Of a DNA stretch of 64,000 bases, positions 3,619 to 39,103 are shown in pieces; the first letter of the stretch is position 1; the number at the start of each line of letters is the position of its first letter. This stretch comes from Peptoniphilus equinus. Lineage in GTDB: Bacteria > Bacillota > Clostridia > Tissierellales > Peptoniphilaceae. Under the pieces are notes generated by a model. It saw nothing but the letters and a program-made list of their open reading frames with translations, did not search any database and was not told the origin of the DNA. The DNA lies in assembly GCF_027921445.1 (NCBI RefSeq), contig NZ_CP115667.1, forward strand, positions 1,054,001-1,118,000, written 5' to 3'. The translations under genes and the position numbers were made by a program.

Positions 3619-3703
3619 CACCCCATCCTTCAAATTGACTACTCAAGTTCTCTTTAAATAATCTGCCGGCAACGCTTCAACCCCATCTAGGACAGGTTCC
3701 AAT

Positions 3704-3732
3704 AAAAAAACGGACTTCCTAGCTGAAATCCG
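3704..3732 (-). terminator. intrinsic terminator of the oxidoreductase/transporter operon
   Basis: On the minus strand CGGATTTC-agctag-GAAGTCCG (8-bp stem, one G-U) is followed directly by seven T. It lies 30 bp beyond the stop of the YczE-like gene. Confidence 0.8.
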
Positions 3733-3761
3733 CTCTACTTTGAAATAATATATTTACGTCT

Positions 3762-14888: not shown

Positions 14889-14911
14889 AGTCATCCTCCC
14901 TTTCATCCCTG

Positions 14912-15406
14912 TCATAGGTTAAATTTATTTGATACATAGTGGTATACTTCGTCAAATGCCGTCTGATTCCCGTCTCCGCTCAGAGTCCGCGCAATCCTAT
15001 ACCGAGTTCCCTGTGCATCGGTGAGAAACAAAACTTTTTCCCTGCCTTCGGCAATCCCAACCTCAAATTTATCCATTTTAGCAAAAGCATAGATCCTCAA
15101 AGACGGTTTCACCACAACCGCATAGCTATCAGTGAGCATAAGTCCCATGCCGCTAAAGCATCGTGCTGTCTTCAACTCGCACTCAAATGCGTCTCTATCG
15201 TCAATGTCGTTCAGTGCTTTCCTATATTCACTATGATTTTTCCAACTGACATAAACAAGTAAAAGCGCCATTACAATCAAAAAATATGCCGTATATGAGT
15301 CACTCACCAGTTTTATCACTACACCTATAATAAGCATCGTTGTCGACACGAGCATGGTTAGCTTAAGTCTGCTGTTACTTTTATCGAAAATGTCAAAATC
15401 ATTCAT
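14912..15406 (-). CDS. hypothetical membrane protein with two TM helices and a PH-like C-terminal part
   Basis: About 164 residues from the ATG at 15406 (the frame opens at 15472). Two helices (about residues 17-55: LKLTMLVSTTMLIIGVVI and YFLIVMALLLVYVSW) are followed by a soluble beta-rich region ending GTRYRIARTLSGDGNQTAFDEVYHYVSNKF. The helix-pair plus beta-domain layout resembles bacterial PH/YcxB-like proteins. The start is uncertain because the GGTGGGAG site is about 15 nt away. It is first in the acid-sugar operon; no link to sugar chemistry is visible. Confidence 0.5.
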   Translation of the reverse strand: MNDFDIFDKSNSRLKLTMLVSTTMLIIGVVIKLVSDSYTAYFLIVMALLLVYVSWKNHSEYRKALNDIDDRDAFECELKTARCFSGMGLMLTDSYAVVVKPSLRIYAFAKMDKFEVGIAEGREKVLFLTDAQGTRYRIARTLSGDGNQTAFDEVYHYVSNKFNL

Positions 15407-15472
15407 ATCTACAGTAAATTTTCTCCCACCGACACATAAGCCGACACTCGATATATAAATAAAAAAGCACAC

Positions 15473-15873
15473 TTCGTAACGATGAAAGTCGGAAACAATC
15501 TTCCCCTACGAAATGCGCCCTCTCCATTCTGTTGGATTGATGTTGCCTATCTTAATATTTGCGGATCTTTTTTTAAGTATAGCAAATATGCTTGCAAACG
15601 GTGCATAAATTTAATGAAATTTAATCACTTTTTAGTATATTTCAATGTAAAAATTCTCGACCAAAACCTCTTCATAGTTGCAAATGAAATCAATATGCTC
15701 TTTCAGCTAATCAAATATGCATTTGGTAAACGTAGTCCACTCTAAAACTCTTTGTTTTTATCTGCTTTTACAGCTATTGGGATGCCTTTTTTTAATGGCG
15801 CCGACAAAAAATAGTATTGTAAAGATTTTCTGCTAGCTGGAATTCATATGAACCATAACACGACTAGACTTTC
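15473..15873. other. AT-rich intergenic region at the head of the acid-sugar operon
   Basis: No supported gene; an 87-codon plus-strand frame here lacks a ribosome binding site and family features. It should hold the acid-sugar operon promoter (a TATATAT-like -10 near 15450-15456) and the 3' end of the regulator transcript. I see no clear terminator or operator. Confidence 0.35.
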
Positions 15874-17760
15874 TTAGGTTGTCTTCTTCAAGTCTCTCCA
15901 CAAGGAAGAACGGCTGATTCCAAGTTTTTGGGCAATCGAAGTGTTGGTGTCTCCCAGATAATATTTAAGCTGCTCCACAGCTTTTTGAAAATTGGGGGCA
16001 GCCATATCACGCTCTGCCAGACAGGGGTACAGGAGCTCCAACTCATGGTACAGATTATCCTCTCCAATAGATTCGATAACCATATGGTGAATGGTATAAG
16101 GGGTGATTTTGACATTCTCATCCAGAAAAAGCGAAAATCTTCCGGCAACCGCTTCCAGTTCGGAGGTACCGCCCGGCCAGCTATATAGCTGAAGTGCTTC
16201 GACTGCCTTCGGAAATCGCTCGATACGGAATTCCTGATTTCGTAGGTTGGAAATAGCTTCCTTAAAGAGGATTGGGATATCTTCCTGACGCTCTTTAAGA
16301 GGAGGAAGATCGATCTGCAGAGTGCAGAGACGACTCAGAAGATCAGGACGAATCTGTGATCTAGGCAGCGGGTAGTCAAAAATGCTGATAAATCGAACAT
16401 TGATACTGATAGGATCGTAACCACCAATGGGAATGATCTGATTGTTGGTCAGGACATCCAACAAGATATCCTGTACTGCAGGACAGGCATCCTGAACATT
16501 TTTCAAGATGATAGTCCCCTGTTTGGCCATCTCGATCAGACCCACATGAGAAGAATTTGAGTCTGTACTACCCAGCAGATGACGTCCCGCATCAGCCGGG
16601 GATATCTGGGGAAGGTTGATAACAATCAGGGGTTGATGGGCTCTCGATCCGCCAGTATGAATACTTTCAGCAAACAGCTGTCTATGAAGGCTGACATCGC
16701 CGACCAGGGCAAGAGGAAGCGAGGACATCGCATATTTCTTACCGAGTTCGATTGCCCGGTTCATACATTCAGACATTGATACCAGCTCTTTCCATTTTGC
16801 AAGATGCTGTCCAGTACCCAGTATATTTTTCTCATTTTTAAGCGTGTTATCAATGCGCAGAATCGTAAGCACACCGACTGGCTGACCTTTGGAATTGACA
16901 CGGACTTGCGTGCATCGAAAGCGGATCCCATCAATAATTTTAAAGGATTCTTCCCTCTGACTGTCTTTAAGCAGAAAGGCATCTGGCGATAGGTTGGGAA
17001 AGAGATCGCCGAGAAACCTCTTTTGGGAAAAATTGGATGGAAGATTGAGATAATTCAGGGCGATCTGATTGATGAGGCTGATCTGCCCGTTGACACTGGT
17101 AAAAATAATTCCGCAAGGAATGTTCCGTATCAAGGACTGGTTCAGTGCATGGTACGTCAGTTCCTTGCGCAGCTCTATGGCAAAATGGCGGGCACGGATG
17201 AGCGAACTACGAACGGTTTCTTCTCCCGCATATATCAGAACACTGCTTTTCCCAAGCTGCGCGGCAAAGCTGCATACCTGTGAAGCACCTATAAATACAT
17301 CATAGTCAGAAGATTCCATCAGCTCATATAATTCCGCACTATCTTCGTAGGAAAGACTGTCTGCGGGAACATTACATAGATCGGATAATAAGGACACATT
17401 GACTTCATGAGCAAGTCGATGCCAGACAACGGCAATCTTCTTCCCAATTTTGGAGGCCTTTTTCAAAGCGGACATATAATCCACATCACGAACAGCCAGT
17501 TCCAAAAGATGCTCCTGAGAATATCGAGAAAAAACAGCTGCATTGGCACCGCCGGCAATATAGATATCAAAGCCTTTGGTGGCTAGCTCACGTATCAACT
17601 CAGGTAGCTTTTCAGGAACACAGTCAATGACTTCAATAACACAACCGTCAAAAGGATATTTTGCAACCACCTCATTTGCTATCTCGGTCAATCTCTGGTA
17701 TCCAAGGAAGCATATCTTGATCGGTTTTAAAGATTGCGTGTAATGTTTCATATGTGTCAC
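15874..17760 (-). CDS. PrpR_N-domain regulator with degenerate AAA+ domain
   Basis: A 628-residue regulator with the layout of a propionate/RocR-type enhancer-binding protein: PrpR_N sensor (about 15-200), PAS-like region (about 210-305), AAA+-like region (about 325-560) and Fis-type helix-turn-helix (NTSIAQKLGISRSSLWRDLKK, about 605-626). The ATPase motifs are lost: Walker A is VGDVSLHR (about 353-360) instead of GESGTGKE, the GAFTGA loop is absent (about 396-407), and Walker B reads TIILKNVQ instead of LDEI. It therefore should not activate sigma-54 polymerase. It is divergent from the CoA-transferase operon, whose promoter looks sigma-A-type and sits beside nested dyads. Most likely it is a ligand-responsive regulator of that operon and itself. 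Confidence 0.8.
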   Translation of the reverse strand: MTHMKHYTQSLKPIKICFLGYQRLTEIANEVVAKYPFDGCVIEVIDCVPEKLPELIRELATKGFDIYIAGGANAAVFSRYSQEHLLELAVRDVDYMSALKKASKIGKKIAVVWHRLAHEVNVSLLSDLCNVPADSLSYEDSAELYELMESSDYDVFIGASQVCSFAAQLGKSSVLIYAGEETVRSSLIRARHFAIELRKELTYHALNQSLIRNIPCGIIFTSVNGQISLINQIALNYLNLPSNFSQKRFLGDLFPNLSPDAFLLKDSQREESFKIIDGIRFRCTQVRVNSKGQPVGVLTILRIDNTLKNEKNILGTGQHLAKWKELVSMSECMNRAIELGKKYAMSSLPLALVGDVSLHRQLFAESIHTGGSRAHQPLIVINLPQISPADAGRHLLGSTDSNSSHVGLIEMAKQGTIILKNVQDACPAVQDILLDVLTNNQIIPIGGYDPISINVRFISIFDYPLPRSQIRPDLLSRLCTLQIDLPPLKERQEDIPILFKEAISNLRNQEFRIERFPKAVEALQLYSWPGGTSELEAVAGRFSLFLDENVKITPYTIHHMVIESIGEDNLYHELELLYPCLAERDMAAPNFQKAVEQLKYYLGDTNTSIAQKLGISRSSLWRDLKKTT

Positions 17761-24868: not shown

Positions 24869-26434
24869 TTATTTCACTATTCCAATTTCAATTCCAGACT
24901 TGAATATTACTTTAAGCATTTCATCATAAACCACTATCTTATCCACTAGTTTTCTTACCAGTTCTTCATCATAGCTTTCTATTTCTAATTCCTGATTTTC
25001 TAAAAATTCTTCTAATTCCATTATTCTGCTTTGTTCATTCTTCTCTTCTGCCATATCTAGTAGTATCTTATCTTTTTCATTTCTTAACTCTTCGACCCTG
25101 TCTGCAAGGTCTGTGTAGTCTTTCTTGGCATTAGCTACTTTTAAAAGCTCTTCTTGAACCTCTAACATTTCTTTGTCTATTTCTTCTATCTGCCTACTTC
25201 CATCACCTGTGATGGCATTTTTAATGTTCTCTTTTATTATTTCTTTTAATTCACTGCTTTCAGCTATAAGCTGATTGATGGCTTCTACGACTGCCGCTTG
25301 TAGGTCTTCTTCTTTTATGGTTCTAGCATGGCAGGAGTCTGGGCCATGGGTTACTCTTGTACAGCATCTCCAAACGGTATATTTTTTCCCTCTATTATTC
25401 CATGCTATTCTCCTGTAAATATCCCCGCATTTAGAGCAATAGACGATACTTGAAAGTGCGTATTTACTTGAGTAGATCCTTCGTTTCCCTTTGCCACTCA
25501 CCATATTAGCACGTCTGTACATTTCTTCTCCAATTCGCATGAAAATTTCTTTTGGTATGATGGCTTCATGGCTATTTTCTACATAGTATTGAGGCGCAAT
25601 TCCATCATTTTTTACTCTCTTCTTATTCAGGAAATCCACTGTATAAGTCTTTTGTAAGAGGGCATCCCCCATGTATTTCTCATTGGTTAATATTTGATTG
25701 AGGTTTGATACATGCCACTTCTTATTTCCTGCTCCATTTACTATCTTGTCTTTCTCTAGTCCTTCCTTAATATCTCGTAGGCTTGCTCCTTCTAAATATT
25801 CTCTGTAGATCCTTTTTATAATTTTTGCTTCTTCAGGAACTATGACAAGTTTTCCCTCTTCGTCTTTTGTGTAGCCTAAGAACCTATTATGATTTACTTG
25901 GACTTGGCCCTGTTGAAATCTATATTGAAAGCCTAACTTCACATTTTGTGATAAAGACTGACTTTCCTGTTGAGCAAGAGATGCCATAATGGTAAGGAGA
26001 ACTTCTCCCTTGGCATCCATGGTATTGATGTTTTCTTTTTCAAAGTAAACTGGTATGTTATTTTCTTTAAGTTTTCTAATATACTTTAAGCAGTCTAGGG
26101 TATTTCTGGCAAACCTAGATATAGACTTTGTGATTATATAGTCGATATTTCCTTCCATGGCTTCTTCAATCATTTTATTAAAGCCAGCTCTTTTCTTGGT
26201 GTAAGTTCCACTGATTCCTTCATCAGAAAATACTCCCGCAAATTCCCATTCTGGATTTTTCTTAATATAATTTGTGTAATGGTCTATTTGAGTGTCATAA
26301 GAAGTTACTTGTTCATCGCTGTCTGTTGATACCCTTGCATAGGCTGCTACTCTTAGTTTCTTTTTTTCTGATTCCTTGATGGAATTTCCTTTTTTCTTCT
26401 TCGCTGGTATAACTATGACCTTGCTATTCATCAT
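24869..26434 (-). CDS. large serine recombinase (third of triad)
   Basis: A 521-residue site-specific recombinase. The resolvase domain has the catalytic Ser36 in [12 protein letters not shown], the arginine region [12 protein letters not shown], and the E helix [24 protein letters not shown]; the recombinase domain, a zinc ribbon (CSKCGD..CC..C, about residue 335-375) and a coiled coil (about 405-470) follow. It acts on att sites for prophage integration and excision. It overlaps the preceding small recombinase gene by 11 bp and ends near a terminator at the apparent prophage margin. Confidence 0.9.
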
Positions 26435-26840
26435 CTATCACCTCGATTAAATTGTACTGGTGGCTTGCTCGTTCAAAGGGATCTATGGGCAAAGTCTCTT
26501 CCTTCTTATATCTAAACTTGCAGGGAACTTTAATAGTTTCTTCTTCTTTTTTCCAAACTCGTCCCATGGCCACTGCCCTTTCTTTTAGCATTTGACCTGC
26601 CTTTTCAAAACTTTCTCTATCTATTATCTTGGGATAGATTTCGTTTCCTAAATATTTTTTATTGGTAAGGATTCTTTTAACGCTTGAGCTGTTTTTCTTT
26701 AAGCCTACAAGGTTCGCCGACTTTATAAGGGCATTTCCATCAAGATAGTTTTTAAAGATTTTTCTTATATTCTCCGCTTCTTTTTCCTGAACTTCTAATC
26801 TTCCATCTCTAATGGTATAGCCATAACATAACCTAGACAT
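26424..26840 (-). CDS. recombinase-domain protein without catalytic domain (second of triad)
   Basis: A 138-residue protein that resembles only the central recombinase domain of large serine recombinases: [31 protein letters not shown] and [21 protein letters not shown]. It lacks the Ser-containing resolvase domain and the zinc ribbon. It overlaps both neighbours by 8-11 bp, so it looks like a maintained part of a three-gene operon, not random debris. A DNA-binding or directionality role is inference. Confidence 0.75.
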
Positions 26841-28395
26841 CTCCTTTCATTTCCTCTCTTAATACAAGTCCACACTTTAAATGAAAATCAAGAGTCTCTC
26901 TATTGACAACTTGAATGTGGTCAATGATTTCTTCAAACAAGTCATCTTCAAAGTGATCTATCATTTTGCTTTTATCTAAGATTCCTATTAGTTTTTCAAG
27001 CTCTCTTATTTCTTCATCATTTCCAAGGATGGCTTTTTTACTTCTTTCCTTTTCTTTGTGTAGATTTCTTTCTTCACTTGAAATTTCACTGCTTTCCTTT
27101 GCGTAAATACTTGCATCTAAAACGCCTGAAGTTATTAGTTTACCTAGAACCTCTTTTCTTTCATTTAGATTTTCTAGGCTTTCTTCTATTTTATTTATTT
27201 TCTCTACTTCTTCCTTACTATCCACTCTCTTTAATGATTCTAAGAGTTGCATTAGGATACTATCTTTTCCAAAGATTAGCTTGTTAACTAAAGTTACAAA
27301 AGCTAATTTTATGTCCTTGTCTTTTATAAACTTCATAGAACATTTATTAATATCTTTAAGGTGTTCACTGCAAGTCCAAGCTATATATTTATCTTTGCCA
27401 TTATAGTGATGTCTTCTCTTAAAGCTTGAACCACACTCGCCACACTTTATTTTCCCCGATAGGCTATATCTATTTTGATATCTTTTAGTGTTTTCTCCAT
27501 TTCCTTTTGCTATAGCCCTAAGTCTTAATAATTCTTGAACTTTCTCAAAATCCTCTCTACTTACTATGGCTTCATGGTTATCTATTATCTTATACTGGTC
27601 TTCTTCTCCCTTATTTTTATGTCTATTATAATTTTCATCTGTATAAGTCTTTTGGTAGATAACATCCCCTGTGTATTTTTCATTTTTTAAGATGCCGTTT
27701 ATAGTCGACCCGTGCCAGCTTGCTCCTTTTTGTCCATTAATCTTTCTCTTATTTAAGTCATCTGCTATTTTATGTGTTCCCTTACCTGAAAGATACTCTT
27801 CAAATATTTCTTTTATTATTTTTCCTTCTTCTTCATTCACTACCATCTTTCCGTCTATATTCTCATAGCCATAAGGTGGGCTTGATATAATAAACGTTCC
27901 ATTTTGAAATCTCTTTCTTATAGACCATTTGTTATTTTCTGATATAGACCTGGACTCACTTTCTGCAAGGGATGAAAGTATGGATAATATCAACTCACTT
28001 TCCATGGTTCTTGTATCAATGTTTTCTTTTTCAAAATAGATACCAATGTTTAAGTCAAGGAGTCTTCGTACGATTTCCAAACAATCTGTCGTGTTTCTTG
28101 CAAGCCTTGAGATGGATTTGGTTAGGATAAAGTCTATCTTCCCATTCTCACAGTCTTTTAGCATTTTTAGAAGTCCATCCCTGCATTCTTTCTTTGTTCC
28201 AGTGATGCCTTCATCAAAGTATAGACCTGCAAATGTATATGATTCGTTCTCAGATATTATCTTTTCGTAGTGTGCTTTTTGCGTTTTAAGACTCACAAGC
28301 TGAGCTTCCTCATCTGTCGATACTCTTGCATAGACAGCAGCTCTTAATATAGATTCTTCTTTTTGATTCGCTTCTATTTTTGTTATCTTTTTCAT
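26833..28395 (-). CDS. large serine recombinase (first of triad)
   Basis: A 520-residue recombinase with catalytic Ser26 in VYARVSTDEEAQ, ISRLARNTTDCLEIV, the E helix LILSILSSLAESESRSISENNKW, recombinase domain, zinc ribbon (CGECGSSFKRRHHYNGKDKYIAWTC..C, split here for length as CGECG...WTC...C) and coiled-coil tail (about 425-480). Ribosome binding site AAAGGAGG precedes it. Together with the two following genes it forms a three-recombinase unit of the kind found on some Firmicutes mobile elements; the 3 proteins may recombine as a hetero-complex. Confidence 0.9.
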   Translation of the reverse strand: MKKITKIEANQKEESILRAAVYARVSTDEEAQLVSLKTQKAHYEKIISENESYTFAGLYFDEGITGTKKECRDGLLKMLKDCENGKIDFILTKSISRLARNTTDCLEIVRRLLDLNIGIYFEKENIDTRTMESELILSILSSLAESESRSISENNKWSIRKRFQNGTFIISSPPYGYENIDGKMVVNEEEGKIIKEIFEEYLSGKGTHKIADDLNKRKINGQKGASWHGSTINGILKNEKYTGDVIYQKTYTDENYNRHKNKGEEDQYKIIDNHEAIVSREDFEKVQELLRLRAIAKGNGENTKRYQNRYSLSGKIKCGECGSSFKRRHHYNGKDKYIAWTCSEHLKDINKCSMKFIKDKDIKLAFVTLVNKLIFGKDSILMQLLESLKRVDSKEEVEKINKIEESLENLNERKEVLGKLITSGVLDASIYAKESSEISSEERNLHKEKERSKKAILGNDEEIRELEKLIGILDKSKMIDHFEDDLFEEIIDHIQVVNRETLDFHLKCGLVLREEMKGDV

Positions 28396-28664: not shown

Positions 28665-28899
28665 GCTCCACCTCCTATATCACAGGCAAAGAAATTAAGG
28701 CTATTTTTAACCTTAGCTTTCTTTCCTCTATATTCCTTAGGACATAGAGAGTGGTTTTGAGTAATGAATTTTCATGAATATCGAAATTCTTGAGTAAACA
28801 AAAAAGACCTATTAGTATTTCAATTGAAATACTAATAGGTCTAAATAGCTAATTACATTTTTATTTGTTAATTTGTTACTATCAAATAATAGGTTTATA
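28665..28899. other. non-coding spacer at the RiPP cassette 3' end
   Basis: No gene. It contains the perfect palindromic terminator at 28805-28842 and probably the promoter for the SHOCT/recombinase operon, which I could not place. Confidence 0.4.
28805..28842 (-). terminator. terminator closing the RiPP cassette
   Basis: A perfect 38-bp palindrome (19-bp arms, AGACCTATTAGTATTTCAA and its complement) followed on the minus strand by TTTTTTG. It lies 58 bp past the last cassette gene. Confidence 0.85.
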
Positions 28900-29232
28900 T
28901 CATTTTTTTAATGCCTTTTTTAAATATAGAGATGCTAGAACCCCTATAAAAAAGAAAATTATACTTATGTAACTGGAAGGTTTACCATCGAAAAAATAAT
29001 AAATAAAAAATATATTCCACGCTAATGGAAATAATAGAATATACCACCAATATAATTTCTTATTATTATAAACCCATGGCATTAAAATGAGAGTGGGAAA
29101 ACAAAATGGGCTAAGTATATAATAATTGAATTCCGATAAAAATCCATACAATTGAGATGTACCTACGAAAAGAATTGGGATACAAGCTATTATTGTTAAT
29201 ATTAGTGAAATCACAAATATTTTATTTTTCAT
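28900..29232 (-). CDS. small membrane protein at the end of the RiPP cassette
   Basis: A 110-residue, very hydrophobic protein with three or four helices (IFVISLILTIIACIPILFVG, YYILSPFCFPTLILMPWVY, YWWYILLFPLAWNIFFIYYF, YISIIFFFIGVLASLYL). Its AGGAGG lies inside the end of the truncated ABC exporter gene and its ATG overlaps that stop (ATGA). I recognise no family. Location suggests an immunity or export accessory protein for the peptide. Confidence 0.55.
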   Translation of the reverse strand: MKNKIFVISLILTIIACIPILFVGTSQLYGFLSEFNYYILSPFCFPTLILMPWVYNNKKLYWWYILLFPLAWNIFFIYYFFDGKPSSYISIIFFFIGVLASLYLKKALKK

Positions 29233-30469
29233 TTGAAATATCCTCCTGCTAGTAAATAATCTATATCTAAATTTTTAATATCACAATCGTCTATTTTTAT
29301 TATCCCGTCATAATCTCTTAATAACCCTGAAATTATTTTTAATAAAGTTGATTTCCCGCTACCATTGGGACCATTAATTGTATATATCATACCTTTTTGA
29401 AAATTATATGAAAAATCATTTATTATTATATTATCATCCACTTTATAAGATAAATTCTTTATTATTAAATAATTTATTGAGCTTGTTTCTTGTTTTAATT
29501 TCTTATTCTTGTTTCCTACATAAGAAATGCTATCAATAATTTCATCTAAACTTCCAACATGGGCTGTGCATACATTCCAATCTCTCAAAATATCCATAAT
29601 TGAATCTGTATATCTTAATAATTGACTAGATAACGTAATAATCGTAGTGAACTCCCCGATAGTAATTTTTCTCTTTATCATAAAATAACCTAATAATAAT
29701 ATATATATGACTCTAAATATATTACTCATTAAGCTTGAAACAAATATATAAATGTTTTCATATTTTATTTGCTTGCTTTTACTTTGTTTAAAAAACCTCT
29801 TTTCATTATTTAAATCAGTTAATACCTTATTTTTTAGGGCGTTTAATTTTATATATTCTATTTTAATAATAAGTTTGAAGTATATAGAAAAATATTTTTC
29901 ATCAGATTTTTTATTTTTTATAACCGCATTCTTTAATTTATTTCTAAAAAAATAATTAATCAAAGCATAAAATGGAGCTATGAGAAATAATAAAAACGAC
30001 AAATTTTTATTGGAACTATATATTGTAAGTCCTATCAGACATATACTAAACAGGTTTGCGAATATAACGTTTATAAATGTTATGATGAACTTTGATATAT
30101 ATATTGAACGCTAGTTGTTAATCTTTTTATTAATTCTTCCTTGATATGTTTTTTAGTTCTTTCATAGTTTGAGTCCAAATATTTTTTTAATAAATTTTCG
30201 TTGAGATAAGTATCGAGCTCAAATTTTAATGTCTCTTGTAAGCAATTTCTAAAATAATTTAATAACTGTGATATTAATATTACTGGTAGAACCACCTCTG
30301 CAAATTTCAAAGAATATTTGAAATCTTTATATACTGAAAGTTCATCAATAAATATCCCCATTTTTTTCGGAATAATTATCGAAGTAATAGAAAAAATAAT
30401 TGTTAGAACTATATAAACACAAAAAACATATTTATGTTTTTTGAAAAATTCTATTAGTATTGATTTCAC
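29229..30469 (-). pseudogene. ABC exporter (TMD-NBD), frameshifted and 3'-truncated
   Basis: Two frames add up to one peptide/lipid-type ABC exporter. The first (30469-30080) encodes the N-terminal helices. The second continues as SKFIITFINVIFANLFS... to 29229 with further TM helices and a nucleotide-binding domain with Walker A GPNGSGKST. The break is at a TA-dinucleotide tract (30096-30105); removing one TA restores the frame. The ATPase domain stops about 45 residues after Walker A, lacking the ABC signature, Walker B and H-loop. The normal stop and ribosome binding site of the next gene follow at once, so an internal deletion is likely. It should be inactive unless complemented. Confidence 0.75.
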
Positions 30470-30485
30470 TTATTTTACCTAAATT

Positions 30486-31784
30486 TTAATACATCTTTGC
30501 AAATAAAATTTCTTTTTCCGATTCTTCTAATTCAGAATAAACTTTTATTGCATTAGTTATTTTTGTCCTGTTTAACTTACAAAATGGAGAATTACTCGAA
30601 TCATAATCCTCAAATATTATATTACTATGATAGCATCCACCAGAACATGTTGAGTAAGCAATACATTCATTGCACTTGTATTTTTTATTATATTTATTGT
30701 CATATTTACAGAGTTCAATGAATGATTTATTATTATCTCCAAGCTTCTTGTCTAAAAATCTTTGACATGGGATTATTTTAACGTCTGGTGTAACCGCTAT
30801 TAAACTTACCCCAGCCCCACAATGCCTTTCTTGCCTAACTGATAAATGTATTGATATTAATTGCTTTACTATGTCTTTAAACGAACTACATTTAGTATAA
30901 TCTTTTTCATGCAAACATTGCATAAAATAATTATAATAATTTTTTATTTCATTGTTTAAAACTGAATAGTTTATCATCTTTATTCTTTCATAAGACTCAG
31001 ACTGTGCAATAGAATTAAATCCCAATTCATACAAATGTTTATGGTTGTCTATTAAATCCATGTTGCTGTCTGTTATAGTTACTCTACCAATCATATTGAA
31101 GTTTTTGAGCAATTTAATGTTGGGCACTATGTAATTGTATGCTCCTTCCCCTGAAGCTGTTTTTCTATTTACATTTGTTTTTAACTCATTGCCATCAATA
31201 GATATTGTAATTGCGAATTTATTTTCTTCTAAAAACTTAACTATATTATGATCAAGTAAAGTCGCATTGGTTGTTATACTATAAAAAAATCTATCTTTCA
31301 AATTATTATCTAACTTTATAGATTCAACAACTTTTTTGATCATATTGAAATTTATAAGAGGTTCTCCACCAAAAAATATTAATGTACAATGTTCTTCAAT
31401 TGGCAGTTCTTTTAGCAAACTTATAAAAGAAGATAAACTTTCTTCGTTGAAAAAGGTTTCGTCATGGTCTTCTTGACTTCTCCCTTCATAACAGTATGTG
31501 CATCTTAAGTTACAACTATATGTCATGAACAATGTAATTGCTTTTATTTTATATTCAGAATTATTAGATTTTATTTTATATTCTTCTAACGAACTTTTGT
31601 TCTCTATGTCAATACCCATTAATGCATTTTCAATAAAATTGTCTGAGCTTTCTTTCAAGTACTCTCTTTTTTCTAAAAAATCATAAACTCCAAGATCAGT
31701 TTTCATTAAAATATTCTTTAAATTTAAATATATTAAACAATTTTCATCATTCTTACAATAGTAAATAGAGTTGATTCTTTTCAT
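30486..31784 (-). CDS. radical SAM/SPASM peptide maturase
   Basis: A 432-residue enzyme starting at 31784 (MKRINSIYYC), with GGGGGA upstream; the frame opens at 31808. The radical SAM cluster motif is CNLRCTYC (Cx3Cx2C, about residue 100), GGEP follows (about 146), and the C-terminal SPASM domain has many cysteines (HCGAG..., PCQRF, KCNECIAYSTCSGGCYHS, FCKLN) for auxiliary [4Fe-4S] clusters. The N-terminal ~75 residues may be a peptide-binding region. Such SPASM maturases install thioether or carbon-carbon cross-links in RiPP precursors. It is one of three radical SAM genes in the cassette and the only full-length SPASM one. Confidence 0.85.
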   Translation of the reverse strand: MKRINSIYYCKNDENCLIYLNLKNILMKTDLGVYDFLEKREYLKESSDNFIENALMGIDIENKSSLEEYKIKSNNSEYKIKAITLFMTYSCNLRCTYCYEGRSQEDHDETFFNEESLSSFISLLKELPIEEHCTLIFFGGEPLINFNMIKKVVESIKLDNNLKDRFFYSITTNATLLDHNIVKFLEENKFAITISIDGNELKTNVNRKTASGEGAYNYIVPNIKLLKNFNMIGRVTITDSNMDLIDNHKHLYELGFNSIAQSESYERIKMINYSVLNNEIKNYYNYFMQCLHEKDYTKCSSFKDIVKQLISIHLSVRQERHCGAGVSLIAVTPDVKIIPCQRFLDKKLGDNNKSFIELCKYDNKYNKKYKCNECIAYSTCSGGCYHSNIIFEDYDSSNSPFCKLNRTKITNAIKVYSELEESEKEILFAKMY

Positions 31785-31810
31785 AATTTTGAGTCCCCCA
31801 AAAAACAATT

Positions 31811-32650
31811 TTAATTTTGATAATATTTATAACAAACATTACAAGAATCAATATAATTATTCATGAATCTAGTTTCATTGTAATATTTATTTAATTCATT
31901 AATGTCCGGACAAATATTTATGCAGTTTCTCATTAAATCGGTAAATTTAGCTTCAAAAAAATTTCCTGCACATCTAGAAGCTTCAATCGCAAAAATTGAT
32001 CCGCATGGATAAATATTTCCATTATAATCAATTGTAATTATATTTCCTTCCGGACATCTAATTTTAATTTCATTATCGTATATGAAGTCAATGTCATCAA
32101 AATATATTGATGCCCTCCCGAATTTATAACATGGATGAATAAATATTCCTGTTGATATCAGTTCCTCCTTTAATTCAGTTATCAATTTTCCTATATCGTC
32201 ATTTTTTAAAATAGTAGTACCTACCACAACTTTTAATCCTATCTTCTTGCTCTCGTTAAGAATGTTTTTCATGTTATTTATGCTAATATTAGCCAAGTGA
32301 TATTTATCAATACTTATTTTTAATGTTACTAAATTATTGTTAACCAATCTCTCTAAAATATTTCTAGTTTTCCCCTTCTCAATTGCCCAGAATCCATTAG
32401 TTGTTATATTGAATATGCACTCATCTCTAAAATAGTTCATAATTTCTTCAATTTCGTCTAAATATATAAACGGTTCACCTCCAGATATTCCTATATATCT
32501 TATTCCATTGTCTATTGCAGCTTTAATAAATTTAATAGCATCCTTTTTATGCATTTTTTCATGTCGTTTTGGCGAACAATTAAAGCAGCATATCGTACAA
32601 TTTTCTGTACATTTTCTTGTATAAAGTAATCCTAAACACTTATAATTCAT
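31811..32650 (-). CDS. radical SAM enzyme with Cys-rich C-terminus
   Basis: A 279-residue radical SAM protein. The cluster motif CTENCTICCF (Cx3Cx2C) is at the N-terminus (about 14-23), GGEPFIYLDEIEEI at about 57, and the C-terminal part has several cysteines (RCPEG, YPCGS, SRCAG, NCINICPD, SCNVCYKYY) consistent with an auxiliary cluster. Its length and lack of an N-terminal peptide-binding domain recall YydG-type epimerases and other short maturases, but I cannot assign the reaction. It overlaps the permease stop by 11 bp and has GGAGG upstream. Confidence 0.8.
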   Translation of the reverse strand: MNYKCLGLLYTRKCTENCTICCFNCSPKRHEKMHKKDAIKFIKAAIDNGIRYIGISGGEPFIYLDEIEEIMNYFRDECIFNITTNGFWAIEKGKTRNILERLVNNNLVTLKISIDKYHLANISINNMKNILNESKKIGLKVVVGTTILKNDDIGKLITELKEELISTGIFIHPCYKFGRASIYFDDIDFIYDNEIKIRCPEGNIITIDYNGNIYPCGSIFAIEASRCAGNFFEAKFTDLMRNCINICPDINELNKYYNETRFMNNYIDSCNVCYKYYQN

Positions 32651-33401
32651 ATTTTTTCCTCCACAAAAGAATTATTATAATTAAACCGATTAGAAGATCA
32701 AAGATATATATTGAAAAATATGTCTGAAAATATTTTATATAGTCATATATCTCAAGATATACATTTATAATAGGGACTCTATAAAATATTATTGAACGCG
32801 TATTACTTAGACCAGGAATAGGATATGTTAAAAACATATTAGCAATAAAAGAACCTAAAATGCTTGTTATCTTATTGTTAGAAAAAGTAGCCACCAAGCC
32901 ACTTAATATCACGGTCATTGCTATTCCAAATAATAAATCTATATTGTACAAACCAAATCTTAGCCATGAATTTAAAACTATACTATCATTTAAAATTACA
33001 AGTCCGCTAGCATCAAAAATTTGATATGGTTCTAAGTTTTTTTGAATACCAAAACAAAATATTATTAATATATCAAAAGATAGGAAAATTAAGACAAATA
33101 TAAATGTAGCTAATAATTTATTGCTTATAACTTTTACAATATTTTTATATTTTATTACTTGATAGTCTAACGGCCCTTTTTTATATTCTTCAGAAAGAAT
33201 TTCCCCAATTATTACATATGTTAATATATTAAAGAAAAGAATAACATTATATAAATCTAAACTTGTATTAAAATAAAAATCAAAAAAATTAGTCTTATTG
33301 CTTTCTTTAAATATAAACATACTTAACATTAGTAGATTTAAATATGTTAAAAACTTAACACTTATCAATTTTCTAATCTTTTTTAATTCTTTAATCAACA
33401 T
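32640..33401 (-). CDS. ABC-2 type permease, immunity-like (partner of ATPase at 33391)
   Basis: A 253-residue protein with about six TM helices and no ATPase. A short N-terminal cytoplasmic helix (LIKELKKIRKLISVKFLTYL) precedes the first TM, as in ABC-2/LanE-LanG permeases. It overlaps the end of the ATPase gene by 11 bp. With the ATPase and the second permease at 35638 it forms a LanFEG-like set that usually protects producers from their own peptide. Confidence 0.7.
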   Translation of the reverse strand: MLIKELKKIRKLISVKFLTYLNLLMLSMFIFKESNKTNFFDFYFNTSLDLYNVILFFNILTYVIIGEILSEEYKKGPLDYQVIKYKNIVKVISNKLLATFIFVLIFLSFDILIIFCFGIQKNLEPYQIFDASGLVILNDSIVLNSWLRFGLYNIDLLFGIAMTVILSGLVATFSNNKITSILGSFIANMFLTYPIPGLSNTRSIIFYRVPIINVYLEIYDYIKYFQTYFSIYIFDLLIGLIIIILLWRKKYEL

Positions 33402-34278
33402 TATTTACCTCCAGTAAACTGAAGTAGAATTTTTCTAAGTTCATTTTGTTGTTACGAACTTCAACAACATTGATTTTGTTAGCTAATAGCTTATATAAAA
33501 CTTCATTTAAAAAATTTAAATTATAATCTTTTATTTCTATGATATTGGTGTTAACAAAAACTGTCTTATTTAAACTATCTGCAAATATGATTTTACAAAT
33601 CTTTGGTTCTAGGATTTTTTCTGTTATAATTGTATACTGCTGGTCTAGACTGGATAAATCTCCTTCATATAATATTAAACCTTTATTAAAAACAATTAAC
33701 TTGTCTACAACTTTTTCAACTTCTGATAATATATGGCTTGTTAATATTACGACCTTGTTCTTCTTTTTCGCTAATTCTATGATTATATTTCTTACATCAT
33801 AAATTCCCTTTGCATCCAAGCCATTTAATGGCTCATCTAAAATAATAAAGGGTCTATCTCCTATCAGAGCTAAAGCAATACCCAATCTTTGTTTCATTCC
33901 TAGAGAATATTCTTTTACTATTCTTTTAGAATCAAATTCGCTTAATCCAACCAAATCTAATAAGTCTATTACTTCTTTTTCATTATACTTTTCTTGGAAG
34001 AATTCTAAATTTTCTCTACCTGTGAGGTATTCATAATAAGAGGCTCCGTCTATTAAAGCACCAAAATAATCGTTTTCTTTATTTGTCCCACCTGAAATTA
34101 AAATTTTTCCCTTATCTGGTTTAGATAAACCAAGTATTATTCGTAATAAGGTAGATTTACCAGCACCATTTGGTCCTATAATTCCAAAAACTTCTCCACT
34201 TTCAACTTCAAAATTTATGTTTCTCAATACCTTAATACCTTTAAAGCTCTTTTCTATGCCAGAAACTTCAATTTTCAT
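33391..34278 (-). CDS. ABC transporter ATPase (LanF/BcrA-like)
   Basis: A 295-residue ATPase with Walker A GPNGAGKST, signature YSLGMKQRLGIALAL, Walker B FIILDEPLNGLD and switch-loop H (LTSHILSEVEKV). The ~80-residue C-terminal extension is typical of BcrA/LanF-type immunity ATPases. It is flanked by radical SAM A upstream and its permease downstream with an 11-bp overlap. It is complete, unlike the exporter at 29229, so self-protection may persist where export has been lost. Confidence 0.88.
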   Translation of the reverse strand: MKIEVSGIEKSFKGIKVLRNINFEVESGEVFGIIGPNGAGKSTLLRIILGLSKPDKGKILISGGTNKENDYFGALIDGASYYEYLTGRENLEFFQEKYNEKEVIDLLDLVGLSEFDSKRIVKEYSLGMKQRLGIALALIGDRPFIILDEPLNGLDAKGIYDVRNIIIELAKKKNKVVILTSHILSEVEKVVDKLIVFNKGLILYEGDLSSLDQQYTIITEKILEPKICKIIFADSLNKTVFVNTNIIEIKDYNLNFLNEVLYKLLANKINVVEVRNNKMNLEKFYFSLLEVNNVD

Positions 34279-34281
34279 GTA

Positions 34282-35657
34282 TTAATCCTCCAGTAAATAC
34301 CCAAAATCGTTTTTTATTATTATTGATAAAAAACTTAAGCTTTTTTCAAAATCTAAAATAGACTTGATACAGAAGTTTTTACTAGGTTTATAAAAATCAT
34401 GGTTATATATTAAATTCTCATATGGACATCCATTTCCACAATAAAGTTGTATAAAGCACTTAGAACATTTTTCTATGTCCCATCCTATTAATGGTATATC
34501 ATTACTTTTAATGTCTTTAATTCTTCCGAAGAGGAACTCATCTTTGCCAATTCCTCTATAACAACTATATAAATCACCTTTTGTAGAAGAAATAAGTCCA
34601 TGATTTCTCCTAGCAAAACAATTTACAGAAAATCTCTTTTTATATATTTTTTTGCCAAATCATAAATATTACAATATATATTATCTCTGTTGTTTTTTAA
34701 ATTATCAAATGTAACTTTTAATAATTTATCTAATTGCAAATTATAATCAATAAAGTCACATTCATCATATATAACATTCTCATCAAATACCAAATTAATA
34801 TATATCCTTTTTACACCTTTGCTCCATAAGTAATTTACAGAATCAAATAAATACTTGATGTCTTTTTTATTAACCGTTATTTGTGCAGACAAAGATTTTG
34901 CACATTTTGAAAATTTATGATAATTAATTAGCACATTGTCAAAAGTATCCATTCTACTTTTATCAGGTCTGTTTTTATTGTGTATAAAATACAACCCATC
35001 TATACTGATACTTATTTCAAAATTATTGCTATTAAGTAAATTTCTTATCTTAGTATTAAATATACTACCATTTGTTGTTACAATATATTGAATTTTTCTT
35101 TTTAGCTTTTCTATACTATTTAAGTATGAAACAACTTTTTCAATTAGTTCTATATTTAGAAAAGGCTCTCCACCAAAAAAATTGACGTAATATATTTTTG
35201 TTTTAGGATTTATATTTTCAATCCAATGATCGATTATTTTTTTAGCAACTTCCCAACTCATAAGGCTTTCTTTTCTACCATAATTTCCACCATCACCGAA
35301 ACAATATATACAGTCAAAATTACATTTTTCTGAAACATTTATGCTCAATGAAGAATATTTTTCTAATTCATTTAACTGTCTATAGATTGAATCTAATTTT
35401 TCTGACGTGTTTTTTCTATTCTCAAATATTGATTCTATTTCATTTATATCAAATTCTTTGTCTATTATTTTTACATCTTTCATCGCTGTAATAAACTCTT
35501 CATCATTTATAAAATAATAATATTTATCCATATAAAATTGGAGGAGTTTTGCTGTTGTATCATCTAAAAAATACAGATCTCCATTGGCACCATCAAAAAG
35601 TATATTAGAGTCTACACCTCTGATTAATCTAATCTGTTCATAATTCATAGTTTTCAT
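34282..35657 (-). pseudogene. radical SAM/SPASM maturase, interrupted by a frameshift
   Basis: Frame 1 (35657-34623) gives 344 residues with the N-terminal peptide-binding-like part, the radical SAM motif CNFDCIYC and GGEPF. It stops at 34623. A second frame directly after continues the protein as FSVNCFARRNHGL, SCYRGIGKDEFLFG, KCSKCFIQLYCGNGCPYEN and NFCIKS, a SPASM domain ending at 34282. The shift lies in an A7-TATATA-A5 stretch near 34640-34657; loss of one TA or gain of one A restores a protein of about 458 residues. It is either broken, frameshifted in translation, or a sequencing error. Intact, it would be the second full SPASM maturase. Confidence 0.75.
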
Positions 35658-36447
35658 AATACAAATTCCTCCTAAAATAATAGTTAAGTATGATCATATT
35701 AATTATACTTAACAATATTGAAAAGATTATTAATCCTATTGCTAGGTCTCCAAATTGTAAAAATTTAAGACTTCTCCAAGTATATTCAGAATTTAAAGGT
35801 AAATATCTATATAAACCATTAGATATATTAGTAAAAGAGAACATAACATATTCAACGACATTCATCATTGAAATTAAAGCTATTGTAAACAAAGCTGACT
35901 TTAAATAATTTTTGAATAAAAATATATTCAATATAAACAGTTCTAAAATAAATATAGAGCCTATAACTTGATTTAAATATAGAGTCAAAATATTAAATAA
36001 AGCATATCTTTGTTCAAAAATCACTTCAGTATTTACAACTACAAAAGAAAGATCCATACTTTTTACTTGTATGTTATTTTGGACTATAAATGCTACAAGA
36101 AATTGTATGGAATATGCAACAGCTATATATATTATGCATATTAATATTTTAAATATATATCTTTCCATGTGGTCATTCTTGTATAGCTTTAAAGCAAGCT
36201 CTATATTATTTTCATATTCTATAGAAAACATACTTCCAATAAAAAGCACTGTTATTATTGGAATATGAAAATTTCCATTTATGATTAAGGTCCTTATTAC
36301 TATAAAATTATCAATTATCTCGCCGTTTATAGAATCAAAAATAGACCACGCTATTATACTTGTCCATAACGCTTGGAATAGTAAAAAAAATAACAATATT
36401 TTCATATTGATAAATTTGATTAGTTCAAACTTTAAGCACTTTCTCAT
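35638..36447 (-). CDS. ABC-2 type permease (LanE/LanG-like), first gene after the precursor
   Basis: A 269-residue membrane protein with about six helices (LLFFLLFQALWTSIIAW; IPIITVLFIGSMF; IFKILICIIYIAVAYSIQF; IFILELFILNIFLF; ALFTIALISMMNVVEYVMF; LIIFSILLSIINMIIL). It begins with a short cytoplasmic lead MRKCLKFELIKF. It lies directly after the precursor and its hairpin, and overlaps radical SAM A by 20 bp. It is probably one permease of the immunity transporter with 32640 and 33391. Confidence 0.65.
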   Translation of the reverse strand: MRKCLKFELIKFINMKILLFFLLFQALWTSIIAWSIFDSINGEIIDNFIVIRTLIINGNFHIPIITVLFIGSMFSIEYENNIELALKLYKNDHMERYIFKILICIIYIAVAYSIQFLVAFIVQNNIQVKSMDLSFVVVNTEVIFEQRYALFNILTLYLNQVIGSIFILELFILNIFLFKNYLKSALFTIALISMMNVVEYVMFSFTNISNGLYRYLPLNSEYTWRSLKFLQFGDLAIGLIIFSILLSIINMIILNYYFRRNLYYENYEL

Positions 36448-36459
36448 TCACTCACCCCT

Positions 36460-36511
36460 AAAAAAAAGAGAATGAAAGGCTCAAAGACCAAAAACCAAAA
36501 ACATTCTCTTT
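36460..36511 (-). terminator. attenuator-like terminator after the precursor gene
   Basis: AAAGAGAATG (minus) pairs perfectly with CATTCTCTTT across a 27-nt loop, followed by a T-run (complement of 36460-36467). Placed 92 bp after the precursor stop and before the first cassette protein gene, it should make precursor mRNA more abundant than enzyme mRNA. Confidence 0.75.
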
Positions 36512-36602
36512 AAAATAATACCTATTTATATTTTTAGTTGCATGACCTTATAATTGTAAACCACTTATTAAATCAAGCCTTATTAAGTAATATATAAAAT
36601 CT

Positions 36603-36755
36603 TTAATGGTATTTTGGATTGCAAACCCCATCATACCAAGAACAAACATCATCTCCTCCACATAAGAAGAAACCTTTTTCTTTCATATCGTTTTTTGTTC
36701 CATTCACTTTTACAATTTTCAAAGTTTGTTTTTTTTCTGTATTTTCTTTATTCAT
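36603..36755 (-). CDS. Cys-rich RiPP precursor peptide with two C-x3-D motifs
   Basis: A 50-residue ORF too short for usual gene calling, behind a perfect AAGGAGG 6-9 nt upstream. The leader is Lys/Glu-rich (residues 1-28, containing TLKIVKVNG). The C-terminal 20 residues hold Cys32, Cys38 and Cys45: CGGDD (32-36) and CSWYD (38-42) each fit the C-x3-D pattern of PapA/freyrasin-type peptides in which a radical SAM SPASM enzyme links Cys sulfur to the Asp beta carbon; CNPKY (45-49) is a third C-x3 unit ending in Tyr. It is first in a transcription unit with three radical SAM genes and transporters. Function as an antimicrobial or signal is inference. Confidence 0.8.
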   Translation of the reverse strand: MNKENTEKKQTLKIVKVNGTKNDMKEKGFFLCGGDDVCSWYDGVCNPKYH

Positions 36756-36790
36756 TATGAACCTCCTTACGAATCTATAGATAGGTATAC

Positions 36791-36818
36791 ATTTAAATGC
36801 GTAAATTACACATTTAAA
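36791..36818 (-). promoter_or_regulatory. inverted repeat in the precursor leader
   Basis: ATTTAAATG (36791-36799) and CATTTAAA (36811-36818) form a dyad in the 5' leader between promoter and precursor. It may be an operator or an RNA hairpin. Confidence 0.4.
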
Positions 36819-36917
36819 AACAAAGTAACAAATAAAATATCCAGAGCCTAAGTTTGATATTACAAATTCAATTTTCTCAATGAAACCCCAAATGATTGCT
36901 CTTTATTCATTAAAATT

Positions 36918-36946
36918 AATCTATCATAGTTAAATATTCGTGTCAA
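36918..36946 (-). promoter_or_regulatory. sigma-A promoter of the RiPP cassette
   Basis: On the minus strand TTGACA (36946-36941), 17-bp spacer, TAGATT (36923-36918) with an extended TGA just upstream. It is about 160 bp before the precursor start and just inside the boundary terminator. Confidence 0.65.
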
Positions 36947-36966
36947 CTATTGTTGATAATTGCATT

Positions 36967-37015
36967 AAAAATAGAGCTTTAATTTTGTATATTCTACAAT
37001 TAAAGCTCTATTTTT
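36967..37015. terminator. bidirectional terminator at the upstream boundary of the RiPP cassette
   Basis: Perfect 17-18-bp arms (AAAATAGAGCTTTAATT and its complement) with a 13-nt loop, A-run on one side and T-run on the other. It insulates the cassette from late phage transcription arriving on the same strand. Confidence 0.85.
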
Positions 37016-37083: not shown

Positions 37084-37921
37084 TTATTTCGGTAGACCAC
37101 CACGTCTTAGTAATCCATTTGAATTCTCGTTTAACCCCCTTTGGCTAGGGCATCCTGGATCAGCAAAAAATATGGATATATCATTTTCGTTCGATACACT
37201 TTGCCAATTTGAAAATTCTTTTCCTCAGTCAAAGGTGATTGATTTAAACAGGTTTTTTTGTAGTTTACTTAGCCATTCATTAAGTCTATTTTCCACATCT
37301 TTGGCTGTTCTTCCTTTAGGTTTGAGGGTTATTATTGCCTTGCTAAGCCTTTCTACAAGTGTGATTACTGCACTTTTATGGTCTTTGCCTATGATTGTAT
37401 CTCCTTCTAAATGACCGAATTCTTTATCATGGGCTGGAAGCTCTATGGCTCTATCTTCTAGGCTTCTTTTAAAACTTTGTTTCCCTCTTTTTTCTTTATG
37501 TCCATTTTTCTTTCTTTTCCCTTTCATAGGCAATTTTCCTGGGTCATAATTTGGACTATCTTTAAATCTTCTGTACAAGGTTCTAGAAGACATAGATAGT
37601 TTAATTTCTCCTCTGCCTACAATCACGTCTGGAGTCCAACCAGCTTTGATTTTCTCATCAACATATTCTTTTTCTTGTGGGCTTAGTTCTTTCTTTGTAC
37701 GACCGCATTTTGATTTGTTTCTCTTATATCTTTCGTGGAAGCCTATGGTGGAAGCCTATGATTGTATGGCTATCTTCAAGGAAATTTATGACATTGTATA
37801 TTGTTTGTCTTGTTATATTTAGTTTTTTAGCTATCTCAGTTACACTCATTGTTTCTAAGTTATAATGCTCTATCGAAATGAGTTCATTTATGGTAAGATG
37901 TTTGTAAGCCGTTTTGTACAC
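37084..37921 (-). pseudogene. IS30-family transposase remnant
   Basis: Three pieces align with one IS30 transposase: the N-terminal helix-turn-helix (37921-37724; GTG start, MSVTEIAKKLNITRQTIYNVI), the central/catalytic part (37626-37225; HLEGDTIIGKDHKSAVITLVERLSK), and the C-terminal piece to 37084 (GKEFSNWQSV..., NENSNGLLRRGGLPK). A 13-bp tandem duplication (37735-37760) breaks the first junction. A TGA directly after ITFD, probably an altered TGG, breaks the second, and a TAA ends it early. The DDE residues are present in pieces. It is dead and abuts the RiPP cassette boundary, suggesting an IS-mediated event here. Confidence 0.85.
37735..37760. repeat. 13-bp perfect tandem duplication in the IS30 gene
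   Basis: GTGGAAGCCTATG occurs twice without spacer (37735-37747, 37748-37760). Thirteen bases shift the transposase frame. Confidence 0.9.
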
Positions 37922-38293: not shown

Positions 38294-39103
38294 TTATAAA
38301 AGCTCATTTACTCTTCTCTGAACTGTATAATAATCATATCCAGCATTAGTTAATCTTCTTCTTCTCTCATCTCCATTACCCCATTTTCCATTTATAACCT
38401 GCCTTGCTAATTGGTCGATCGTTTTTCCAACTGGATAAACTATCTTACCATTGTCATCAAAAACTTTTAATCTGAATCTATCGGCACATCTTTTGGCATT
38501 ATCTAAATTCTTAAATGCACCTTTCTGACTTTTTACATCAGACCAGGATTTTCTAACTCTATATAAACAACCTACTGGTTTACTAACAGTATTATTTCCT
38601 CTGAGTCTTTTATTTACCTCACTTGCTATATATGGGAACTTACTTCCTAGATATGGACCAGGACAATTTGTATTTTTATACCACTCGTGTTTTTGAAGAA
38701 CGCCATCCTTACCTCCAGTATAGGTACAAGGATAGATTCCATTTCTTCTGCAGATGTCTGTCACCAAATCAATTAGTCTATTTAAAACGTAATCAGAAAC
38801 TAACCACTTAGGTCCTCTCGTAGAGTTTCCTACTTCTATTGTAACTGCTCTATTGTCACACCAGGAAGATGAGGTTGTCCAGGCTCTGTTAGATTCATCA
38901 ACCCCCAAAACAATTACTCCATCGGATCCTAAGTTGTAGTTAGCCGAGGCTTTTCTTGACCTTGGAACAAATATCCCAGCAAGATTTCTACCATTTATAA
39001 CTCCAGCTGCATGGTGGATTGCTATTTTAGTAATTTTTTGATTCCTTCTTCCACTATGGTTCGGTGAGAGAATGGTTGCTTGTACTAATGGGCTATTACT
39101 CAT
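38294..39103 (-). CDS. phage endolysin: N-acetylmuramoyl-L-alanine amidase with CW_7 domain
   Basis: A 269-residue amidase_2-type endolysin. The zinc site starts with IAIHHAAG (about 28-35); HEWYKNTNCPGPYL (about 140-153) holds the later His and Cys ligands. A middle SPOR-like part (LYRVRKSWSDVKSQKGAFKNLDNAKRCAD) precedes a C-terminal CW_7 peptidoglycan-binding motif (TIDQLARQVINGKWGNGDERRRRLTNAGYDYYTVQRRVNELL in pieces, about 228-269). It cuts the host wall at lysis. The holin gene ends directly at its start. Confidence 0.88.
   Translation of the reverse strand: MSNSPLVQATILSPNHSGRRNQKITKIAIHHAAGVINGRNLAGIFVPRSRKASANYNLGSDGVIVLGVDESNRAWTTSSSWCDNRAVTIEVGNSTRGPKWLVSDYVLNRLIDLVTDICRRNGIYPCTYTGGKDGVLQKHEWYKNTNCPGPYLGSKFPYIASEVNKRLRGNNTVSKPVGCLYRVRKSWSDVKSQKGAFKNLDNAKRCADRFRLKVFDDNGKIVYPVGKTIDQLARQVINGKWGNGDERRRRLTNAGYDYYTVQRRVNELL

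Follow-up and report, generated by a model that had tools for sequence, protein, structure and literature searches.

A decayed prophage cassette of Peptoniphilus equinus pairs a new precursor peptide family with PapB-like and EpeE-like radical SAM enzymes

The stretch of DNA analysed here (the window: 64,000 nucleotides, positions 1,054,001 to 1,118,000 of contig NZ_CP115667.1 of Peptoniphilus equinus) contains a prophage which carries, on the minus strand from about 36947 to 28805, an operon-like block of genes for a ribosomally synthesized and post-translationally modified peptide (RiPP). We consider that this cassette is probably lysogenic-conversion cargo, that its intact ancestor made a secreted, cross-linked, probably epimerised and likely antibacterial peptide together with the means of immunity, and that production in the window is probably off. 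Peptide antibiotics as prophage cargo, such as sublancin, are already known, and so are the PapB and EpeE chemistries taken separately. What is new here is the precursor family and the informative cargo bay in which the cassette lies. The family, which has no Pfam or NCBIfam match, is paired with two presumed chemistries of radical S-adenosylmethionine (SAM) enzymes, a pairing that is testable in an apparently intact cluster of another bacterial family. Because bacteriocin-type cassettes are acquired, exchanged and damaged at this one phage site, it also becomes testable whether phages retain such genes for lysogen competition. The lesions reported below also counsel caution, as an operon that seemed intact on reading the sequence alone proved not to be so.

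The Precursor Peptide and Its Family

The initial annotation of the window, made from the sequence alone, had proposed as precursor a 50-residue open reading frame (ORF) with a strong ribosome binding site and three Cys, of which two are spaced as C-x3-D. This was confirmed: the ribosome binding site is AAGGAGG, and the two motifs are CGGDD and CSWYD. The genome holding the window, a single contig of 1.71 Mb, belongs to the same family, Peptoniphilaceae, as Peptoniphilus lacydonensis, and strain EL1 of the latter (G114, NZ_FNWF01000003) carries the same prophage and cassette with 83% DNA identity over 7.5 kb, retaining the C-terminal half of the precursor. A further counterpart, a 42-residue ORF (MKDNNLIKPINEEITEDKNDWILCGNDDVCDDCIGICDPTFH), was found in a genome of another family of the same order (G147). 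It keeps all three Cys, the DDV, the G, the P and the terminal His, as well as the first C-x3-D (CG-x-DD). The local alignment of the window and G147 precursors scores 75, whereas the runner-up among 129 short ORFs there scores 28 and the best of 2000 shuffled queries 53. Across the three sequences the core consensus is LCGxDDVCx4G[VI]C[ND]Px[FY]H.

A degenerate pattern of this core matched, over about 490 genome searches, only the window, G147 and one more genome (G589), and a reversed control pattern matched none; among 391 genomes of the class, the yield was the window plus the single G589 match (CGEDDFCRSLQGMC), which is probably due to chance. Judged by its sequence, the precursor is a real gene and not a chance ORF, and its family is considered real and rare because of the score of the G147 homolog, the conserved core, the few pattern matches and the empty reversed control. 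No match to the precursor was found in IMG/VR, either by peptide or by degenerate pattern, or in plasmids, and a comparison with NCBIfam and Pfam, including Clo7bot, CLI_3235/CcpM, SCIFF and nif11, returned no family match. The conservation of the core across families, each time 5' of radical SAM genes, supports the reading given above, homologous short ORFs preceding the related radical SAM clusters in both P. lacydonensis and G147.

Maturation Enzymes and the ABC ATPase

Three radical SAM genes (rSAM1, rSAM2 and rSAM3) follow the precursor, with CxxxCxxC radical SAM domains at 35657-34623, 32650-31811 and 31784-30486. PapB (NF047865) is the best family for rSAM1 (E 5.6e-45; 154 bits for the N part) and rSAM3 (E 4.7e-68; 229.9 bits), below its cut-off of 340 bits. 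The best family for rSAM2 is YydG (TIGR04078), with an E of 1.4e-32 and 113.4 bits, under a cut-off of 300 bits, and that for the ATPase of the ATP-binding cassette (ABC) transporter encoded between rSAM1 and rSAM2 is TIGR03740 (lantibiotic protection), with an E of 2e-54 and 184.8 bits, below a cut-off of 309.75 bits. Because the curated cut-offs are not reached, membership of PapB, YydG or TIGR03740 is not claimed. rSAM3 has a CNLRCTYC motif and a SPASM domain above cut-off; rSAM1 has a CNFDCIYC motif, but its SPASM domain is out of frame. The nearest solved structures are YydG/EpeE for rSAM2 (E 2.6e-22) and the radical SAM protein 5wgg for rSAM3 (E 7e-33). Cys216 of rSAM2 lines up with the YPC Cys, which is residue 247 of the chain in the tagged YydG structures, the offset being presumably that of the tag. 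EpeE is a residue-inverting epimerase with a critical catalytic Cys, Cys223 (PMC8326336). PapB links Cys to Asp/Glu in Cys-X3-Asp/Glu motifs and accepts spacers from X0 to X6 (PMC9413430). On these likenesses, the product was likely a hybrid, a thioether-bridged peptide with D-residues.

The reading of the cassette as a PapA/freyrasin-type system needs amendment: PapB-like SPASM enzymes do accompany a C-x3-D precursor, and an epimerase-like enzyme had been missed. Likewise, the three radical SAM genes, the LanFEG-like transporter and the exporter listed in the initial annotation are all present, with rSAM1 and the exporter frameshifted and rSAM2 resembling an epimerase and no cross-linker.

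The counterparts in G147 are 41% (rSAM1) and 42% (rSAM2) identical, and the combination of precursor, PapB-like enzymes and epimerase is repeated there, which again supports our reading. A search of IMG/VR gave no close relatives of rSAM2 or rSAM3. AlphaFold modelling that used no deep alignment gave low-confidence structures (predicted local distance difference test, pLDDT, 48 for rSAM2 and 40 for rSAM3), and these were not used. Two other candidates, L008 and L009, are distant SPASM proteins, and no such cassette was seen around L008. On reading, no precursor with this core was found at the other epimerase-like loci (G031, G187, G053, G036 and G442).

Lesions and Selection

The rSAM1 gene of the window lacks one base in a run of seven A, and the SPASM search recovers its SPASM domain as an orphan frame of 125 residues in a different frame. 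The exporter is split by a gain of two bases in an AT repeat (about 30095-30106), and its ATPase stops after Walker A, so that the signature and Walker B are absent. The set of intact precursor, maturases and export expected of a functional RiPP cassette is therefore incomplete in the window, and the rest of the genome yielded no Peptidase_C39 exporter. The proposal that the lysogen makes and exports a cross-linked peptide or bacteriocin is accordingly unsupported, and production by the window lysogen appears unlikely.

The P. lacydonensis copy is damaged too, and all of its lesions differ from those of the window: the start and the ribosome site of the precursor are lost, rSAM1 contains a TGA, rSAM2 has a frameshift in a run of eight T, and the exporter has a 20-base tandem duplication. 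The genes that are open in both copies are rSAM3, the ABC ATPase and both permeases. Between the two copies the ratio of nonsynonymous to synonymous substitution rates (dN/dS) is 0.12-0.22 for the enzymes, the ATPase and the exporter and 0.28-0.29 for the permeases. These values indicate that purifying selection was at work during most of the period after the copies diverged and that the lesions are therefore recent.

The Cargo Bay and the Mosaic Origin of the Cassette

The surrounding genes were recognised as those of a prophage (endolysin, holin, tape measure, terminase and major head proteins), and the placement of the cassette between recombinases and lysis genes held up, with the endolysin and holin on one side and large serine recombinases on the other. 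The interval between endolysin and recombinase is a cargo bay, lying between lysis genes and integrase and varying in content among related prophages. The recombinase (E<=1e-150) is present in 37 of 130 genomes of the family, one genome per species being covered, and rSAM3 in two. The bay was compared in 19 related prophages whose recombinases are 90-93% identical. Five of the 19 have an empty bay, with about 212 bases from a conserved 69-residue ORF to the endolysin; in three, no endolysin was found within the stretch fetched, and the bay could not be delimited. Two (G001 and G125), and also L030 and L038 from IMG/VR, carry a cassette that encodes a RumMC-like maturase (E 1e-125) together with a putative sactipeptide precursor of the CA_C0660 type (E 2e-7), ending in a homolog of the 110-residue membrane protein of the window. 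Other bays hold transporters of the ABC or energy-coupling factor (ECF) type with proteins of the multidrug and toxic compound extrusion (MATE) type, an adhesin-like gene and other genes, all named from reading the sequences and not from family searches.

The last part of the window cassette is derived from such a sactipeptide cassette. Up to 29250, on the 5' side of the junction, the sequence is 87% identical to the P. lacydonensis cassette, and from 29241, on the 3' side, it follows the tail of the sactipeptide cassette (L126), with 82% and then 95% identity over 457 bases. Because of this junction and the shared tail gene of 110 residues, the window cassette is read as a mosaic, put together in the bay from two different peptide-antibiotic cassettes. 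Neither the lesions nor this swapping of cargo had been noticed in the initial annotation.

More generally, one bay in one Peptoniphilaceae prophage family may be an exchange site where cassettes of different RiPP classes recombine, one of which would encode an undescribed class with a PapB-type non-alpha thioether and EpeE-type D-residues in the core given above. We put this forward tentatively, as a proposal somewhat short of an even chance. In a partial literature judged by title and abstract, no combination of the PapB and EpeE chemistries on one precursor was found.

Proposed Pathway and Alternative Explanations

In the intact ancestor, the leader would have recruited the two PapB-like radical SAM/SPASM enzymes. 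These would take hydrogen from Asp, or from another acceptor, and bond Cys sulfur there, for example in CGGDD and CSWYD. The YydG/EpeE-like rSAM2 would invert one or more residues to the D form, the ABC exporter would release the peptide, and the LanF-like ATPase with the two permeases would shield the producer. In the window, production would have been lost as the frameshift removed the SPASM domain of rSAM1 and as half of the exporter ATPase disappeared when recombination with another cargo cassette gave the window cassette a new tail. Several points weigh against this account. None of the cassette enzymes reaches a curated family cut-off, and the chemistry may differ from that of PapB and EpeE; the G147 precursor does not keep the second C-x3-D and has CDDCI there; the G147 cluster showed no clear ortholog of the LanF-like transporter; and the frameshift in the A7 run could stem from an error of sequencing or be overcome by slippage at A-AAA-AAA.

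The last point leads to the view that the cassette is functional, its frameshifts being either errors of sequencing or overcome through slippage or phase variation at the A7 and AT repeats, with another transporter exporting the peptide. The A7 run of rSAM1, followed by T, is indeed a -1 slippery sequence, the exporter insertion lies in the AT repeat and the rSAM2 lesion of P. lacydonensis in the T8 run, tracts that are prone to slippage and to sequencing error; the low dN/dS would also fit. However, the truncation of the ATPase is a recombination junction (29241-29250) and no matter of base calling; sequencing error or slippage could account for the A7 site but not for this junction. Programmed frameshifting, also weighed for rSAM1, would still leave the exporter broken. 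With P. lacydonensis independently devoid of the precursor start and carrying a stop in rSAM1, and with no C39 exporter to take over, a functional cassette seems very unlikely.

Selection may instead now keep the immunity function, the intact LanF-like ATPase and permeases resisting a peptide made by other cells, which would make the cassette a resistance or cheater locus. As this would predict, each of the two prophages has an intact ATPase, two intact permeases and broken production genes. Yet the permeases have the highest dN/dS of the set, and rSAM3 is also intact in both copies and more conserved, which immunity alone leaves unexplained; the analogous YydIJ transporter makes B. subtilis only slightly more resistant (PMC7026026). 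We regard this explanation as somewhat unlikely. It is improbable, too, that the peptide was a signal or another small molecule and not antibacterial. A gene for a response regulator and one for an AgrC-like membrane protein lie on the opposite strand after the G147 cluster, and SCIFF ranthipeptides have been linked to quorum sensing, according to the title of a reference cited in PMC8326336; against a signal speak the LanF-like protection ATPase in the cassette and the putative sactipeptide bacteriocin which the same bay holds elsewhere.

Comparison with Known Systems

The freyrasin (PapA/PapB) ranthipeptides resemble the window cassette in that its maturases are nearest to PapB and its precursor shows the C-x3-D spacing. 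They differ in having six C-x3-D/E motifs, whereas the window precursor has three Cys, and the cassette has two PapB-like enzymes, scoring below the PapB cut-off, plus an epimerase-like one. With the epipeptides (YydF/EpeX with YydG/EpeE) the cassette shares an EpeE-like enzyme, one Cys of which aligns with the YPC Cys, and a neighbouring set of ABC ATPase and permeases, as in YydIJ. In contrast to them, its precursor contains Cys and has no family match to YydF, PapB-like cross-linkers are present and no gene for a YydH-like protease is found among the cassette ORFs.

Sublancin 168 in prophage SPbeta offers a precedent for RiPP bacteriocin genes and immunity as prophage cargo, and its cluster serves host competition and prophage maintenance (PMC8270828). 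Sublancin is, however, an S-glycosylated glycocin made without radical SAM modification, and its cluster is functional. The sactipeptide clusters of the ruminococcin C/CA_C0660 type are represented in the same bay of sister prophages by the RumC-like cassette that donated the tail of the window cassette; they differ from the latter in their CA_C0660-like precursor of 65 residues and their RumMC-like maturase (420 of 720 bits). The G147 cluster (L019 4498-16804) is chromosomal, with no phage genes recognised within 20 kb. It has the same precursor core and orthologs of rSAM1 and of the epimerase-like enzyme. It differs in being apparently intact, with four radical SAM/SPASM genes after the precursor ORF, then a YydG-like gene, an M16-type peptidase and an ABC exporter.

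Layout of the Locus and Minor Observations

The coordinates are collected in Table 1. In order of transcription, the cassette comprises a promoter-like site, the precursor, permease 1, rSAM1, the ABC ATPase, permease 2, rSAM2, rSAM3, the ABC exporter, the 110-residue membrane protein and a terminator. P. lacydonensis has a comparable promoter-like site, TTGACA...TATGATAGT. Terminators at both ends had been annotated, and both were found. The one that closes the cassette was reported by the terminator scan; the inverted repeat at the 5' end, whose loop exceeds the limit of the scan, was seen by eye, and a degenerate form of it stands at the equivalent place in P. lacydonensis.

Table 1. Features of the cassette and of the bay around it (positions in the window)
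Feature	Position	Strand	Remarks
Endolysin	38294..39103	-	Opposite border of cargo bay
XRE-type regulator, 63 aa	38017..38208	-	Start of bay; homologs in P. lacydonensis and sactipeptide-bearing prophages
IS30-type transposase remnants, broken	37225..37921	-	Inside bay, between XRE gene and precursor; absent from P. lacydonensis copy
Terminator-like inverted repeat	36967..37015	-	5' of cassette; stem GAGCTTTAATT/AATTAAAGCTC, long loop
Promoter-like site	36918..36946	-	TTGACA-17-TAGATT with extended TG, 5' of precursor; 10/12 consensus in scan
RiPP precursor, 50 aa	36603..36755	-	Core LCGGDDVCSWYDGVCNPKYH; homologs in P. lacydonensis and G147
ABC-2-like permease 1, 269 aa	35638..36447	-	Intact; membrane protein without significant family match, role presumed from position
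rSAM1, PapB-like radical SAM/SPASM maturase	34282..35657	-	FRAMESHIFTED at A7 (34653-34647); 344-aa open part ends 34623, without SPASM
ABC ATPase, LanF/gallidermin-protection-like	33391..34278	-	Intact; Walker A, signature YSLGMKQ, FIILDEP
ABC-2-like permease 2, 253 aa	32640..33401	-	Intact; PF12730 at E 0.19 only
rSAM2, YydG/EpeE-like radical SAM peptide epimerase	31811..32650	-	Intact in window
rSAM3, PapB-like radical SAM/SPASM maturase	30486..31784	-	Intact
Exporter ABC transporter	29229..30469	-	No C39 domain; broken (2-base insertion, truncated ATPase)
Recombination junction	29241..29250	-	Cuts exporter ATPase
Membrane protein, 110 aa	28900..29232	-	Homolog of last gene of sactipeptide cassette
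Intrinsic terminator	28805..28842	-	17-bp stem; closes cassette
Conserved ORF, 69 aa	28455..28664	-	Border of bay on recombinase side; 90-99% identical across 19 prophages
Large serine recombinase	26833-28395	-	
Recombinase-like ORF, 138 aa	26424-26840	-	Between the two large serine recombinases
Large serine recombinase	24869-26434	-	

The 110-residue membrane protein ends two different cargo cassettes and may be an immunity protein; its copies in L123 and L126 are broken up by frame changes. The sister sactipeptide cassette (L123 4131-5744 and 5790-5987, L126, L030 and L038) comprises the RumMC-like maturase, the 65-residue precursor MLKVVDPMYKKEVTDDVAFSCRCYCNVQAQNHSTGKSGAWWPGDCGCACAPGNVRNHNSNSAVVG and an ABC exporter. 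The bay of another prophage (L139, from G112) holds an adhesin-like surface protein of apparently 1644 residues. In G031 (L020 8790-10736), a YydG-like gene is accompanied by a small ORF and a membrane protein with an HELSH motif, an arrangement that resembles a classical epipeptide operon within the same family. The same contig also contains a lantibiotic-like precursor (..GGTANTHCHCYSGKDSCGHGCTITTECPFATLICC) at 3669-3896 and, at 14504-16865, a 729-residue radical SAM protein behind a Cys-rich ORF of 61 residues.

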